From: Bacteroidaceae bacterium
Lineage (GTDB): Bacteria; Bacteroidota; Bacteroidia; Bacteroidales; Bacteroidaceae
Assembly: GCA_017933995.1 (NCBI GenBank)
Contig: JAGBKI010000057.1
Coordinates: 1 to 59,088 of the forward strand
DNA length: 59,088 nt
Direction of reading: 5' to 3'
The translations under genes were made by a program, and so were the position numbers. Positions 2,399 to 32,038 of the stretch are shown piece after piece (within the stretch, counting starts at the first letter, position 1; the number at the start of each line of letters is the position of its first letter). The notes beneath the pieces were generated by a model. The model made no database searches. It worked only from the letters and a program-made list of their open reading frames with translations, and had not been told where the DNA came from.

Positions 2399-3106
2399 AT
2401 GACCCACAACGACAGAATGCACATCCTCCTTTGCGAGGACGACGAGAACCTCGGTATGCTCCTGCGCGAGTACCTCCAGGCCAAAGGCTACGAAACCACC
2501 CTCTGTCCCGATGGCGAGGCAGGCTACCGCACGTTCACCTCCACCCACTTCGACATCTGCGTGCTCGACGTGATGATGCCCAAGAAGGACGGCTTCGCGC
2601 TGGCCAAGGACATTCGCCTGCAAGACCGCGACGTGCCCATCATCTTCCTCACGGCCAAGACGCTCAAAGAAGATATCGTCGAGGGCTTCAACATCGGTGC
2701 CGACGACTACCTGACCAAGCCTTTCTCGATGGAAGAACTCACGCTGCGCATCGAGGCCGTGCTGCGCCGCGTCAAGCGCCGCCGCAACGAAGACCAGGAC
2801 CAGTACGTCATCGGCTCCTTCACCTTCGACACCAAGAAGCAGATACTCTACCACGGCGACGAGCAGACCAAACTCACCACCAAGGAGAGCGAACTGCTGA
2901 CCCTGCTCTGCGCCCACGAGGGCGAGGTGCTGCAACGCGACTACGCGCTGAAGAGCATCTGGATTGACGACAACTACTTCAACGCCCGTTCCATGGACGT
3001 CTACATCACCAAACTGCGCAAGCACCTCAAGCCCGACCCCTCCGTAGAAATCATCAACATCCACGGCAAGGGCTACAAACTCGTCACGCCCGAAAACCAG
3101 CAATAG
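2399..3106 (+). CDS. rprY: RprY-type OmpR-family response regulator
   Basis: A 235-residue cytoplasmic response regulator and the presumed phosphoacceptor of RprX. The receiver domain has the acidic pair in CEDDEN, the phospho-aspartate in VLDVMMPKKDG (about residue 57) and the conserved Lys in LTKPFSMEEL (about 106). An OmpR/PhoB winged helix follows from about 140, ending in RSMDVYITKLRKHL and HGKGYKL. An internal ATG at 2417 gives MHILLCEDDEN, which fits family N-termini well, so the real start may be there. The bases before the gene contain a repeated AACTGATTAACTGATTAAC stretch that also occurs before valS. A strong hairpin follows the stop codon. Confidence 0.92.
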   Translation: MTHNDRMHILLCEDDENLGMLLREYLQAKGYETTLCPDGEAGYRTFTSTHFDICVLDVMMPKKDGFALAKDIRLQDRDVPIIFLTAKTLKEDIVEGFNIGADDYLTKPFSMEELTLRIEAVLRRVKRRRNEDQDQYVIGSFTFDTKKQILYHGDEQTKLTTKESELLTLLCAHEGEVLQRDYALKSIWIDDNYFNARSMDVYITKLRKHLKPDPSVEIINIHGKGYKLVTPENQQ

Positions 3107-14430: not shown

Positions 14431-14464
14431 AGGGAACAGGTATTATTGGTTATGCATAGCGATG

Positions 14465-14495
14465 CAAATGTAATCAATTCCCCGCAGAGCGCAAA
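14465..14495 (-). promoter_or_regulatory. Promoter of the VOC-DUF1016-GDPD run
   Basis: On the minus strand TTTG (14492-14495), 19 bases, TACATTTG (14465-14472). The TTTG lies inside a GCAGAGCGCAAAGGC hairpin block that also supplies the -33 box of both GNAT modules. Confidence 0.7.
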
Positions 14496-14537
14496 GGCGG
14501 GGCGGGAGATTTATCGCGAGCTCGTTGTTGCATGGTC

Positions 14538-25085: not shown

Positions 25086-25160
25086 CAAAAGTAGTCATTA
25101 TTTACGTCGTTATTCTTCCCTTTTCGCCGCAAAGATAACAAATCCCCCGCAGAGCGCAAA
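25086..25160 (-). promoter_or_regulatory. Promoters and terminator hairpin before GNAT module 1
   Basis: On the minus strand TTTG (25157-25160), 19 bases, TATCTTTG (25130-25137); a second box TACTTTTG lies at 25086-25093. The upstream TTTG sits in the loop of an 11-bp hairpin (25140-25150 with 25167-25177) that begins at the stop codon of the wHTH fragment. The block is nearly identical to that at 27522-27552. Confidence 0.7.
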
Positions 25161-25175
25161 GGCGTGGCGGGGGAT

Positions 25176-25352
25176 TTATCGCTCGCTCGCCAGCCCGTAG
25201 CCGAAGCTGGGGCGGGTGGTGAGGGCGGCTGCGAGGGGGGCGAGCTTCTTGCGCAGGCGGGTGACGGTGACATCCACAGTACGGTCGGATACGACAACGC
25301 CCTCTGGCCAGGCGGCGGCGATGAGTTCGGGGCGGGAGAAGACCTTACCGGC
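25176..25352 (-). pseudogene. Duplicated 3' fragment of the transporter-fused winged-helix domain
   Basis: About 58 codons encode KVFSRPELIAAAWPEGVVVS, then DRTVDVTVTRLRKKLAPLAA and FGYGLASER, matching the last residues of the protein at 27568-29631 with two or three substitutions. The similarity ends abruptly near 25352. No start or upstream domain is present. It marks a duplication that carried the 3' end of the transporter gene together with a GNAT module. Confidence 0.85.
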
Positions 25353-27478: not shown

Positions 27479-27521
27479 AATTCTATATACTTTTACGTCA
27501 TTTTTCTTCCCTTTTCGCCCG

Positions 27522-27552
27522 CAAAGATAACAAATCCCCCGCAGAGCGCAAA
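27522..27552 (-). promoter_or_regulatory. Promoter of GNAT module 2
   Basis: On the minus strand TTTG (27549-27552), 19 bases, TATCTTTG (27522-27529). The TTTG lies in the loop of the terminator hairpin (AAATCCCCCGC with GC-rich right arm) of the transporter-wHTH gene. Confidence 0.72.
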
Positions 27553-27567
27553 GGCGTGGCAGGGGAT

Positions 27568-29631
27568 TTATCGCTCGCTCGCCAGCCCGTAGCCGAAGCC
27601 GGGGCGGGTGGTGAGGGCGGCGGCGAGGGGACCGAGCTTCTTGCGCAGGCGGGTGACGGTGACGTCGACGGTGCGGTCGGATACGACAACGCCCTCGGGC
27701 CAGGCGGCGGCGATGAGTTCGGGGCGGGAGAAGACCTTGCCGGCGTTCTCCATCAGCAGGCGCAGCAGGGCGAACTCCGTGGGTGTGAGGCTGACGGGTT
27801 GCCCGGCGATAGTGGCCTGCTTGCTGTCGAGGTCGAGCGCGAGTGTGCGGTAGGTGAGTACGTCGTGCGGCGCAGTGGAGGGAGACGAAGACGAGGTGGG
27901 GAACGTCAGGCCGAAGCGGGCTTCGAGGACGTTGACAATGTAGTCGCCAAGGCGTTCGAGTTCGTTGATAAAGTCGATATAAATAGTCCCGAGAGTGAAG
28001 GAATAGGCGTGCTCGTCCACGGCGCGGACGTTGGCCGTGCGCAGTTCGCGGCGCAGGGCGTTGATTTGCTGCTCCAAGGCGATGCCGCGCGCGGGGCTTT
28101 GGTCTTCCAGGCGACCGCCAAGTACGACGCACATCTGATCCAAGGCTTCCTCCACGAGGTGCATCATCCGCTCCACGCCCTCGCGCTGTGCGTCGGTGAA
28201 CTGCTCCTTCCCCTCACCGAGGCGGCGCAGGATGCGGGCGAGGTTGTAGCACGCGTCGCCCACGCTTTCCAGTTCGCTCACTTCGCGCAGCAGGGCGCGG
28301 ATTTTCGCTTTCGTATCTTCCGAAAGGTGGGCATCGCTCACCTGTCCGAGGTAGCGGCCAATTTCTGCTTCCATATTGTCGGCAATCTGCTCGTATTTCT
28401 CAATGCGTGCGAACTGCTTCTTGAAGGCTTCGTCGTCCGTCGTCTCCAAGAGCGGGCGGACGAAACCGAACATCCGCTGCATGCGCTGGGCGAAGAGGGC
28501 CGTCTCTTTTTGCGCTGCGAGGAGTGACGCTTCGGGCGTGGCCACGAGTCCGCCGCCGATGTATTGCAGGCGCGTGGGTTCGTCATCCTCGCCCGCTTTC
28601 TTCTTGTCGCGGATGACACGGCAGACGATGCGCTCCATCTGCGGGATGAAGCCGATGAGCACGGCGCTGTTCAGGAGGTTGAAGCAGGTGTGGAATGTGG
28701 CCAGCACGACGGTCAGTTTCGCGGCGTTGGCCAGGAAAGCCACCTGTCCCGCCGACGTGCGCGTCATCTCGGCGTCATAGCCTACGAGTCCGCATACTCC
28801 GTCCACGAAAGGATGGAACACGACGAGCATCCAGCACACACCGAAGAGATTGAAGAACATGTGGGCGAAGGCTGCGCGGCGCGCCTCGGTGGAGGCGGAG
28901 AGGGCGGCGAGGTTGGAGGTGACGGTCGTGCCGATGTTCTCGCCCATCACGAGGGCGATGCCTTGATAGATGGGCAGTGCGCCGCTGGAGCAAAGTATCA
29001 TCGTGATGGCCATCACGGCGGCGGACGACTGCACGCACATCGTCAGCACGCCACCAATGACGAGGAAGAGCAGCGTCGTCGTGAAACTGTGCGGGTCGAA
29101 AGATGCGAAGAAGCGCAGCACGGCCTCCTGCTCGCCAAGATTCATGTCCACGCCCGTCTGCCGCAGTGTGCCCAGACCGAGCATCATAAAGGACAGGCCG
29201 AAGAGGAAGTCGCCCGCCGAAGCCTTCTTCCTGTAGATAAGAATGAGGGCGATGGCGAAGGCGGGCCAGACGAGGCTCGTCACGTTGAAGGCCGTACCAG
29301 CGGAGATAATCCATGCCGTGAGCGTCGTGCCGATGTTCGCGCCCATAATGATGCTGATGGCCTGCGCCAGTGTGAGCAGTCCGGCATTGACGAAGGAGAC
29401 GGTCATCACCGTTGTAGCCGTCGACGACTGCACCGCCGCCGTTACCGCCACGCCCGTCAGCAGACCCGTGAAGCGATTCGTCGTCATGCGTCCCAAGGCG
29501 TGGCGCAGCCCAGGACCCGCCATCTTTTGCAACGCCTCGCTCATCGCCTTCATACCGTAGATGAGCAGTGCCAGTGCGCCGACGAGTTTCAGCGCAATGA
29601 AGATATAGTCCAAAGTTGAGGTGGGTTCCAT
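27568..29631 (-). CDS. Na/Pi cotransporter with PhoU-like region and C-terminal OmpR-type DNA-binding domain
   Basis: A 687-residue inner-membrane protein. Residues ~10-330 form a Na/phosphate cotransporter (NptA/YjbB type) with the duplicated QSS motifs VTAAVQSSTATT and CVQSSAAVMAI and the GANIGTT / GENIGTT signatures. Residues ~370-560 are a PhoU-like helical region. After a Ser/Pro linker, residues ~590-687 are a winged helix of the OmpR/PhoB type (LTPTEFALLRLLMENAGKVF, SRPELIAAAWPEG, SDRTVDVTVTRLRKKLG, GFGYGL). No receiver domain is present. The frame is continuous, so this is a real fusion, not a missed stop. It could couple phosphate entry to gene control. Start at ATG 29631; a further start at 29646 is possible. 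Confidence 0.88.
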   Translation of the reverse strand: MEPTSTLDYIFIALKLVGALALLIYGMKAMSEALQKMAGPGLRHALGRMTTNRFTGLLTGVAVTAAVQSSTATTVMTVSFVNAGLLTLAQAISIIMGANIGTTLTAWIISAGTAFNVTSLVWPAFAIALILIYRKKASAGDFLFGLSFMMLGLGTLRQTGVDMNLGEQEAVLRFFASFDPHSFTTTLLFLVIGGVLTMCVQSSAAVMAITMILCSSGALPIYQGIALVMGENIGTTVTSNLAALSASTEARRAAFAHMFFNLFGVCWMLVVFHPFVDGVCGLVGYDAEMTRTSAGQVAFLANAAKLTVVLATFHTCFNLLNSAVLIGFIPQMERIVCRVIRDKKKAGEDDEPTRLQYIGGGLVATPEASLLAAQKETALFAQRMQRMFGFVRPLLETTDDEAFKKQFARIEKYEQIADNMEAEIGRYLGQVSDAHLSEDTKAKIRALLREVSELESVGDACYNLARILRRLGEGKEQFTDAQREGVERMMHLVEEALDQMCVVLGGRLEDQSPARGIALEQQINALRRELRTANVRAVDEHAYSFTLGTIYIDFINELERLGDYIVNVLEARFGLTFPTSSSSPSTAPHDVLTYRTLALDLDSKQATIAGQPVSLTPTEFALLRLLMENAGKVFSRPELIAAAWPEGVVVSDRTVDVTVTRLRKKLGPLAAALTTRPGFGYGLASER

Positions 29632-29704
29632 AAGTGTTTCTATCAATGGTTTTGCACCGCGAAGTCAGCCGTTCGTGGTGATCTCGCGGTGCAAAAATAG
29701 CGCA

Positions 29705-29733
29705 CAGCGCGGGAACCAAATGTCCCCGCGCTG
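29705..29733. promoter_or_regulatory. GC-rich palindrome upstream of the transporter-wHTH gene
   Basis: CAGCGCGGG (29705-29713) and CCCGCGCTG (29725-29733) form a perfect 9-bp inverted repeat, 75-100 bases upstream of the start codon and overlapping the promoter zone (TATTTTTG on the minus strand lies next to it). It could be an operator for the gene's own DNA-binding domain or a small hairpin. Confidence 0.45.
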
Positions 29734-29830
29734 TTACAATATGGTTACAAAACCGCTCGCGAAGCGCAAAAGCCGTGCGGACGTTTTAAGTAGGAGAGAA
29801 ATGTAGCGTACTTCTACTTACGCTACAGGT

Positions 29831-32038
29831 CTATGCTTTCTGCTCCCATAGTTTCCCGTAGGCTTTCTTCACGATGGCAGCCATCAAGCGGCGGGACAAC
29901 TCCGCTTCGACCTCCCTGTTCGCGTCGCTCTCGGAAATAGGGGCAAGGTTAAATTCCAAGTCTGCGTATGAGACGTTCAACTTATTGAAGAGGAAGTGGA
30001 TGATGATTACCTTGGTTTGCGTGCTGTTGGAGGAGTTTATGTAGCAACCTTTTTCAAACTCTGTGCATCCCTTATGTCCTTTTTCTTGTACCCATATTTC
30101 ATCGTGCGCCCATTCGTTGGCGTTACACAACACACGCATTGACGAGGGAGATTCTTGGTATAACAAGCCGCAAAGTCCCACAAGCATATCTTTCCACGAA
30201 CTTACTTCGTGTTTTTCACCCTTGTATGTGAAAGAAAGGATTTTACGTCCCGTAAGTTCTGTTTCATCGTCGTCAAACGAAACAATGTCTGTTTCTGTTT
30301 CTAAAGGTTTGAACGTAGTGGTAGGCATTGGCCACAGGGATAAGAATTTGTTGTAGAGCAGTTGCTGGCGTTCGAGCAACTCCTTTTCCGTCCACTGGTC
30401 GGCGCTCTTCACATAGTCGCTCAGCGTGAAATGGCTCTCGTCAATGCCGGGGATATGCTCTCCTTTGTATTCGTAGCCTGACTTCTTTTCAGAAAACGGG
30501 CGGTTTCCGTAGTTGCTGTTGTAGGCGGTCAGTGTAAGGTTGGCAAATGTGTGGAGATACTGATCGTGAATACGTTCGGCCTCTGGTCCCAAGTGTTGTC
30601 GCCAGGTAGTGGAGAGAGTTTGTGGCATGATATGCTCGATGGTAACATCTCCATTCTTCATAAGTTCCACGTCCCAAGTTCCCTCTTTGCTGCCTCCGTT
30701 TTCCATTCGTTCAAAGAGAAAGTAACGATTCGCGACAGACAGGCGGTAAATCTCGCGCGTCTTGAACTCTTCTTGCAACAGGCCATCGGAGGGATATAGG
30801 CCACTGCCTTGACGTTTCAGTAGCACGAACTTCAATACTTCCGCATATCGGGAAATGGGGAGTCCGCGTCCTGCTTCTTTAACCATCAGCCGAATGATTT
30901 CGTGATGAATGGCGGCAAAAACCTTGTTTAGGGCATTGGAAGGCAGTCTGCAAATGATACGCCGCGCCCAATAACCCTCTACGATGTCAAACACTTCGTA
31001 TTGTTCGCGGGCCGAAAGATTGTTGTCGTGGGCATATTTAAGGAATACCGTAAAGAAAGGAATTCCGACCGTTGAGTCAAGGGTATTCAACTGGCGGAAT
31101 TTCTTATTGAGTCGCTTGTCGCCAGAGTTGCAATGGATGAACTTAGCATAGTATTGCGCTAATTCGGCCATATCGCTCAACACTGCTTCGCGCGTCAAGT
31201 GTTTATTCAGAACGTACGACTTAAAATCGGGATAAAGGTTACCAATCTTACTGATGCTCCTTGTTTGGATGGTCAGATAGTCGCGGATAAACATCGTAGG
31301 TTCGTAGTCGGTACATTCTTCGATTACGTTCCAATAGTCTTTGTAACAGCGTTCCTGCTCCTTTGCGTCCATAGACATCAACAGGTAGTTGCGGATTTTG
31401 TCGGCCTCGCTCAAGTCAAGTCCTGTGGAGTTGAGGCTCTCAAAGATAAGTTGCGGGTCGTCATCGCGCTCCAGCCGGATGTCTATGATGATGAGTTTCC
31501 TAATGGAAGCCAGCATTTCCTCCAACGTCAGTTGGCAGCCTTTCAGCAGGTTGTAGAATAGCAGATAGTTGCGCGTCACGTTGGATTCCTTCACATACTT
31601 GTCGCTCGTCTTATATAGGAGTGCCTCGAACGCTTCCCTGTCGTTCTTTATCGGTTTCAGCTTCACCTTGTGGTCGTCGTCTTGGTATTCGTCCACAAGG
31701 TAGGTCTTGAGTATCTTGTCAATTTGGCGCACGTCGTCGTAGCGTAGGTCACCGCTTTTCGCAGCATTGACCATCGCGATGAAAAGCAACGAAATGGTGG
31801 TGATACGTTGCTGACCGTCTATCACAAGGAAATCGTCGTTGACATCGTTAGCACGGCTCGTGACTATGCTGCCGAAGAAGTGGGATTTGCGCCCCTCCTC
31901 GTGAGTCTTCACAAGGTCAGAAAACAGTTGTCGGCAATGTAAAATCTGCCAATCGTAGTTGCGTTGGTACAAGGGAATGATGAAACGTTTGTCCGCTCCC
32001 TCGAAGAACCGTATGAGTTGTTTGTCTTCGCCTTTCAT
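29831..32038 (-). CDS. GmrSD-like restriction protein (DUF262 plus DUF1524 HNH)
   Basis: A 735-residue cytoplasmic protein. The N-terminal DUF262 domain has IIPLYQRNYDW (about 20-30) and the ParB-like NTP-binding motif VIDGQQRITT (Asp74-Arg78). The middle DUF1524 HNH nuclease region has TIEHIMPQTLS (about 465) and TLTAYNSNYGNRPFSEKK. The C-terminal ~150 residues (SFTYKGEKHEVSSWKDMLVG, then EFEKGC) form an extra domain seen in some single-chain GmrSD proteins. GmrSD enzymes are type IV restriction systems that cut modified phage DNA using NTPs. The low-GC codon usage compared with the flanking genes suggests transfer. Confidence 0.88.
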   Translation of the reverse strand: MKGEDKQLIRFFEGADKRFIIPLYQRNYDWQILHCRQLFSDLVKTHEEGRKSHFFGSIVTSRANDVNDDFLVIDGQQRITTISLLFIAMVNAAKSGDLRYDDVRQIDKILKTYLVDEYQDDDHKVKLKPIKNDREAFEALLYKTSDKYVKESNVTRNYLLFYNLLKGCQLTLEEMLASIRKLIIIDIRLERDDDPQLIFESLNSTGLDLSEADKIRNYLLMSMDAKEQERCYKDYWNVIEECTDYEPTMFIRDYLTIQTRSISKIGNLYPDFKSYVLNKHLTREAVLSDMAELAQYYAKFIHCNSGDKRLNKKFRQLNTLDSTVGIPFFTVFLKYAHDNNLSAREQYEVFDIVEGYWARRIICRLPSNALNKVFAAIHHEIIRLMVKEAGRGLPISRYAEVLKFVLLKRQGSGLYPSDGLLQEEFKTREIYRLSVANRYFLFERMENGGSKEGTWDVELMKNGDVTIEHIMPQTLSTTWRQHLGPEAERIHDQYLHTFANLTLTAYNSNYGNRPFSEKKSGYEYKGEHIPGIDESHFTLSDYVKSADQWTEKELLERQQLLYNKFLSLWPMPTTTFKPLETETDIVSFDDDETELTGRKILSFTYKGEKHEVSSWKDMLVGLCGLLYQESPSSMRVLCNANEWAHDEIWVQEKGHKGCTEFEKGCYINSSNSTQTKVIIIHFLFNKLNVSYADLEFNLAPISESDANREVEAELSRRLMAAIVKKAYGKLWEQKA

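Follow-up and report, generated by a model that had tools for sequence, protein, structure and literature searches.

A Na/Pi symporter–PhoU protein with a PhoB-type DNA-binding domain, a putative phosphate regulator in Bacteroidales

How PhoU relays the state of a transporter to PhoR and PhoB is a long-standing question. Among regulators anchored in the membrane, ToxR and CadC cross it once, with an N-terminal winged helix in the cytoplasm and a sensor in the periplasm. The Pho box consists of two 7-nt repeats separated by 4 nt, and the PhoB effector domain without its receiver binds DNA constitutively, according to passages of PMC4415409. NptA-type transporters and PhoU relatives are surveyed in PMC13170248, the available sections of which do not mention a DNA-binding fusion. 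The transceptor CbrA is described, in parts of PMC13022988, as an SLC5 transporter fused to a histidine kinase. Searches of the open-licence literature brought up no entry on a transporter–DNA-binding fusion of the kind reported here (subscription papers and most preprints lie outside this scope).

The window, a stretch of 59,088 nucleotides from a Bacteroidaceae bacterium, encodes such a fusion (Table 1). Translation gives a single open frame of 687 codons without internal stops, for which an alternative start is possible at TTG 29646. The front part passes the cut-offs of Na_Pi_cotrans PF02690 (185 bits in two stretches, curated cut-off 29.1) and of the Na/Pi symporter model NF037997 (167 bits, cut-off 50), and stays slightly below that of TIGR00704 (203.6 bits, cut-off 210.1); by family it is a Na/Pi symporter, with a predicted function in sodium-driven phosphate uptake. 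The PhoU domain PF01895 passes its cut-off at residues 486-570 (45 bits, cut-off 23.5), and Trans_reg_C PF00486 matches residues 610-682 with 78 bits (cut-off 26.2) over profile positions 1-76 of 77, which makes the winged helix complete. The top NCBIfam match of this last part is the Bacteroidota PhoB model NF053854, restricted to residues 585-683 and to profile positions 126-224 of 225, so that the score of 102 bits falls below the full-length PhoB cut-off of 270. The recognition region VVVSDRTVDVTVTRLRKKLG is retained in alignments with PhoB and among the fusions. The winged helix is under purifying selection, with dN/dS of 0.02-0.22 in the eight pairs computed, the most distant of which has synonymous sites near saturation. 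Pfam scanning of the fused protein found no receiver domain and no HisKA or HATPase, which sets it apart from transporter-kinases of the CbrA type. No strongly hydrophobic stretch occurs after residue 345, the seven present being confined to the part before it; thus the PhoU region and the winged helix form a soluble tail, presumably cytoplasmic. The sequence-only reading of this DNA had described one frame joining a phosphate transporter core with two QSS repeats and the motifs GANIGTT/GENIGTT, a PhoU-like region and a complete winged helix without receiver; Pfam and the translation agree with it throughout.

Table 1. Coordinates of the features discussed.
Feature	Position	Strand	Details and basis
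Fused gene, Na/Pi symporter–PhoU region–PhoB-type winged helix	27568..29631	-	687 aa, ATG at 29631
Transporter core, residues 1-345	28597..29631	-	Na_Pi_cotrans repeats with QSS motifs; Pfam
PhoU-like region, residues 361-574 (limits set by us)	27910..28551	-	ELESVGD and ELERLGD motifs; PF01895, alignments
Junction/linker, residues 575-589	27865..27909	-	Alignment of 28 fusions
PhoB-type winged-helix domain, residues 590-687	27571..27864	-	PF00486, partial NF053854, PhoB alignment
Putative Pho box, TTGTAAC CATA TTGTAAC	29733..29750	-	Two 7-nt direct repeats 4 nt apart; pattern scan, conserved before relatives
Putative -7 element, TATTTTTG	29692..29699	-	33 bp after the Pho box; sequence and spacing scan
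Palindrome, arms AGCGCGGG/CCCGCGCT	29705..29733	.	Overlaps the box-to-promoter spacer
Duplicate of the last ~60 winged-helix codons and 3′ flank	25101..25352	-	94% identical, without a start of its own
Histidine kinase and response regulator	782-2278 and 2399-3106		The regulator is an RprY equivalog over the NCBIfam cut-off

Compared to the PhoR-PhoB system (NF053854; Bacteroides fragilis PhoB in excerpts of PMC3547664), the fusion shares the PhoB-type winged helix and the 7-4-7 direct-repeat box, and phosphate transport genes are likely targets of both. However, it has neither receiver nor kinase and carries its DNA-binding domain on a membrane transporter-PhoU protein. From the NptA-type Na/Pi symporter with a C-terminal PhoU, as presented in parts of PMC13170248, it differs by the extra C-terminal DNA-binding domain, whereas the transporter, the PhoU region and the conserved motifs are the same. 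To judge from the sections of PMC13022988 on CbrA, both proteins unite a transporter and a signalling output in one polypeptide with a helical domain between, but the output of the fusion would be DNA binding, without an intervening kinase or response regulator, and its transporter belongs to another family. With ToxR and CadC it has in common an OmpR-type winged helix anchored in the membrane. The ToxR-like layout suggested by the sequence-only reading does not hold, as the winged helix sits at residues 610-682 of 687, behind PhoU and a polytopic transporter with its seven hydrophobic stretches. A CbrA-type transceptor with DNA-binding output would be a nearer analogy than ToxR.

A search of 61 genomes of relatives, 37 of them from the window's genus, revealed three of these 37 that encode the full-length fusion (G000, G027 and G023), the window's own genome among them. 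A 393-genome scan of the order added, among the matches listed, one further fused genome (G423) from another family. Public loci were collected from one-genome-per-species contigs with fused proteins as query, and the best 80 of at least 557 related loci were retained. The fusion is encoded by 25 of these 80, a proportion that differs from a population frequency because the set holds the best matches to fused-protein queries. Most of the fused loci come from rumen Prevotella or Prevotellaceae assemblies that are separate from one another; one (L156) belongs to Prevotella aff. ruminicola Tc2-24, apparently an isolate judging by its name, and another (L091) comes from the same genome as G027, Alloprevotella sp. 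RGIG4801. The search among relatives called for by the sequence-only reading thus returned full-length fusions in several separate genomes, contrary to the absence by which that reading could have fallen.

The surroundings of the fused gene contain several repeats. A 253-bp duplicate pair with 94% identity occupies 25101-25352 and 27492-27744, the latter being the 3′ end of the fused gene with its flank, and the former is probably a remnant. After each copy come a small gene and one for a GNAT acetyltransferase; these pairs are paralogous and resemble toxin-antitoxin modules, and a BspA-like LRR gene lies between the two copies. A third copy of the stretch 3′ of the fused gene (61 bp, 85% identical) is found at 14464-14524. 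Directly upstream of the fused gene lies a GmrSD-type restriction endonuclease gene (29831-32038).

Five congeners (G024, G019, G007, G004 and G009) provide an operonic counterpart, in which a response regulator and then a HisKA/HATPase kinase come after an unfused transporter of 560-594 aa, all on one strand; G028 has the regulator and the kinase in the same order. The PhoBs of G024 and G007, the two that were scanned, pass NF053854 with 313 and 286 bits, respectively (cut-off 270). Given this transporter-phoB-phoR order, the fusion resembles the operon minus the PhoB receiver and the gene boundary, and the evidence points to a fused regulator that would be a derived PhoB, not one assembled from scratch.

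Alignment of 28 fusions places the junction where PhoU ends, ahead of the first winged-helix strand. In a transporter-core tree, these fusions fall in four places, termed groups A (17 members), B (seven), C (the window and L091) and D (L092 and L093). Groups A and B have a very short linker; that of group C is Ser/Thr/Pro-rich and 9-14 residues longer than that of group A. In this tree, built from 111 transporter cores with the winged helix excluded, well-supported branches force at least three changes of the fusion label, counted against operonic rows only. For the transporter core, with 46 selected rows, a single origin shared by all fusions was rejected (p-AU 8e-14). The long-branched operonic transporter of G007 falls beside the group A fusion L138 in the 46-row tree, where group A is therefore less clean than in the 111-row tree. 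The tree of the winged helix (~95 residues) joins group A with D (98/94) and does not reject one clade (p 0.499). Both group D proteins look like chimeras, with a transporter part from one paralogue and a PhoU and winged helix resembling those of group A. Judging from these comparisons, groups A, B and C likely arose by separate joins, and group D by a swap of tails. One fused tail may instead have passed from paralogue to paralogue of the transporter; as the winged-helix tree accommodates one clade, this course and repeated fusion are only partly distinguishable.

Profile searches found few PhoR and PhoB matches in fused genomes. Among the congeners, full-length PhoB (E<=1e-75) was found in none of the three fused versus 26 of the 34 unfused genomes, and PhoR (E<=1e-60) in none versus 27 of the 34, one a partial frame. 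For the 50 genomes behind the public loci, the figures for full-length PhoB (E<=1e-75) are 2/25 fused versus 14/25 unfused (Fisher p 0.0006, shared ancestry ignored). PhoR (E<=1e-42) was detected in three of the 25 fused genomes (G430, G439 and G445) and in the same 14 unfused genomes that have PhoB (Fisher p 0.002, shared ancestry ignored). We chose the 25 unfused genomes among 55 unfused loci, five of them because phoB is adjacent; without these five, both PhoB and PhoR occur in 9/20 (p 0.006 and 0.019, shared ancestry ignored). Neither protein was found at these thresholds (E<=1e-75 and E<=1e-42) in 21 of the 25 fused genomes, some of which are incomplete. In fused genome G442, a contig end truncates a phoB frame. 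In fused genome G445 (L211 382-985), a frame change disrupts phoB next to a phoR that looks intact, possibly a decay intermediate of PhoR-PhoB in a fusion carrier. Moreover, PhoB is also missing from 11 of the 25 unfused genomes, so its loss does not require the fusion, which counts against a simple replacement story.

The window's genome, a draft of 66 contigs and 83.7% complete, has two HisKA matches, one of which adjoins an RprY response regulator (417 bits, NCBIfam cut-off 370). A histidine kinase on contig C62 was rejected as PhoR, since it reaches 27.5 bits for HisKA (Pfam 26.9), yet is unlisted by the PhoR profile at E<=1e-25. Besides the fusion, winged-helix matches in the 84% of the genome covered are the RprY orthologue, the duplicate remnant and a 236-aa protein on contig C57 (L008 1492-2202, minus strand). 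By eye, this last protein shows two hydrophobic stretches; its OmpR-type winged helix is C-terminal. It lacks a receiver-like start, unlike PhoB, and is a candidate for another membrane-anchored regulator. In G423, 99% complete, the best match to the PhoB profile is a response regulator with 212 bits, below the cut-off of 270, and it was rejected as PhoB. PstB exceeded its cut-off in none of 49 genomes, four of which, three of them fused, come close at 314-327 bits (cut-off 343). Na/Pi transport may therefore be the main phosphate route in most of these genomes, with PstB as the one gene checked.

A pattern scan upstream of the fused gene revealed a direct-repeat Pho box, which the sequence-only reading had missed, and, 33 bp downstream of it, TATTTTTG, which we take to be a Bacteroidota-type -7 element. 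A box with at most two mismatches precedes 20 of the 21 fused genes of groups A, C and D, the exception being L092 with three mismatches. Such boxes were also found before 9/12 operonic and 5/62 other transporters, and before none of the seven fused genes of group B; the reversed pattern gave 0/102 before transporter genes. In raw counts, each of the 21 fused genes outside group B has an element like TAnnTTTG 32-33 bp after its best box, and only 6/12 operonic transporters do. Within group B, a different element containing TGTTACAAT, an inverted half-site, is common to six of the seven genes. The 9-bp palindrome that had been pointed out in the gene's own promoter zone does exist, with its arms at 29706-29732, and is the sole exact match within the window, but it was not seen in the upstream sequence of L091, the closest fused relative, and was rejected as a conserved operator. 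By sequence, the operator of the fused gene is likely the direct-repeat Pho box, not the palindrome.

Scanning the window's genome with at most one mismatch gave six box matches versus two for the reversed control; the 33-bp spacing is present at all three perfect boxes and at none of the three one-mismatch matches. The perfect boxes precede the fused gene, a PepSY-like gene pair (C52) and a CitMHS/TrkA_C (SLC13-type) permease (C62). PepSY-like genes have boxes at this spacing in G004 (twice) and G007 as well, both genomes with PhoB and PhoR. In G007, a PepSY-like pair, TerC and an SLC13-type permease lie beside transporter-phoB-phoR, all on one strand (L086), possibly an ancestral phosphate regulon cluster. 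Among 20 stretches around box matches that we selected, three obey the spacing rule, namely those of a TerC gene (G441, a fused genome), a Na/Pi transporter (G445) and the fused gene of G443. It is obeyed by nine of 41 further box matches and not by 32. Five of the nine had already been counted (four fused genes and one PepSY gene). The new ones precede a transporter upstream of phoB (G460), another Na/Pi transporter (G474), a PHO4 phosphate permease by Pfam (G467) and a glycosyltransferase-like frame (G454), all in genomes with PhoB; the box of the last (L180, at 1501), a PhoBR genome, is perfect with a 32-bp spacing. Genome-wide, boxes with at most one mismatch number 94 versus 63 for the reversed control in the 25 fused genomes, and 76 versus 94 in the 25 unfused ones, weak evidence that separates little from the control. 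Any regulon is therefore small.

Altogether, the fusion is probably a phosphate regulator that is tethered to the membrane, controls its own gene and has taken the place of PhoR-PhoB, the transporter-phoB-phoR operon having collapsed into one polypeptide. This proposal draws on the architecture, its spread, the operonic counterpart, the lack of PhoB and PhoR matches at the thresholds given above, and the boxes with their constant promoter spacing; we infer DNA binding to the boxes, activation, phosphate as the signal and PhoU as the switch. PhoB would have shed its receiver, and its DNA-binding domain would have become attached to a Na/Pi symporter at the PhoU end; phoR and any separate phoB would have disappeared from most of the fused genomes seen. 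The transporter and the PhoU region would sense phosphate flux or supply. With ample phosphate, the tethered winged helix would be held inactive or be unable to pair head-to-tail on DNA; some such restraint is expected, because the receiver-less PhoB effector domain binds DNA constitutively (passages of PMC4415409). With low phosphate, it would bind the Pho box, which lies immediately before the -33/-7 promoter, and switch on the fused gene itself along with a small number of unlinked ones, such as the PepSY-like pair and the SLC13-type permease. The box-less group B and the full-length PhoB coexisting with the fusion in two of 25 genomes count against this explanation. The one-protein phosphate sensor-regulator imagined in the sequence-only reading gains good comparative support from the operon of the congeners, the conserved boxes and the 21 of 25 fused genomes where neither PhoB nor PhoR was found, although operator, layout and origin differ from what was supposed. 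More tentatively, the transporter itself might be the transcription factor, its transport state gating the PhoB DNA-binding domain via PhoU with no kinase, receiver or soluble intermediate. Such a protein might have arisen more than once in Prevotellaceae and displaced PhoR-PhoB, and it would have to meet the chromosome at the membrane to act on unlinked genes.

Other readings of the same data seem less convincing. It is hardly credible that assembly or sequencing joined two genes by mistake: the window's genome is a draft in many contigs, but the same architecture in 25 of the best 80 public loci, from separate assemblies and one apparent isolate, together with the clean frame and the purifying selection on the winged helix, indicates that the fusion is no artefact. 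The protein could instead be a precursor, from which proteolysis or an internal start releases a free, constitutive PhoB effector, the transporter serving as carrier only. The constitutive binding of the isolated effector domain (as given in parts of PMC4415409) and the longer Ser/Thr/Pro-rich linker of group C fit such a precursor; groups A and B, however, have almost no linker between PhoU and winged helix, leaving little room for a cleavage site, and we regard this course as unlikely.

We also consider it improbable that the fusion is a repressor that shuts its own promoter at high phosphate. Autoregulation alone is silent on the sign, and the palindrome overlaps the promoter spacer in the window. 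Yet a gap of 33 bp separates the box from the -7 element, which puts it ahead of the core promoter, where an activating PhoB would be expected to bind; boxes are placed likewise before phosphate transporters in PhoBR genomes, and the palindrome is not seen in L091. Rather doubtful, too, is a structural or protein-interaction part for the winged helix, for instance in pairing PhoU domains, with the boxes read by another regulator. Other roles for such domains are conceivable, and the canonical box is missing from the group B genes. Against this stand the retained recognition region, the fixed-spacing boxes kept in genomes where PhoB was not found, and the identity of the other winged helices in 84% of the window's genome, namely the RprY orthologue, the PhoB-unlike C57 protein and the remnant.

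For the regulator proposed here, the kinase and the receiver seem to have been removed and the transporter, PhoU and DNA-binding domain placed in one chain, so the coupling between them could be studied in a single protein, and the fusion is present in an apparent isolate (Tc2-24). The rule of a Pho box plus 33 bp offers a way to seek phosphate regulons in this group. If the proposal is true, one protein would be both a transporter and a transcription factor.
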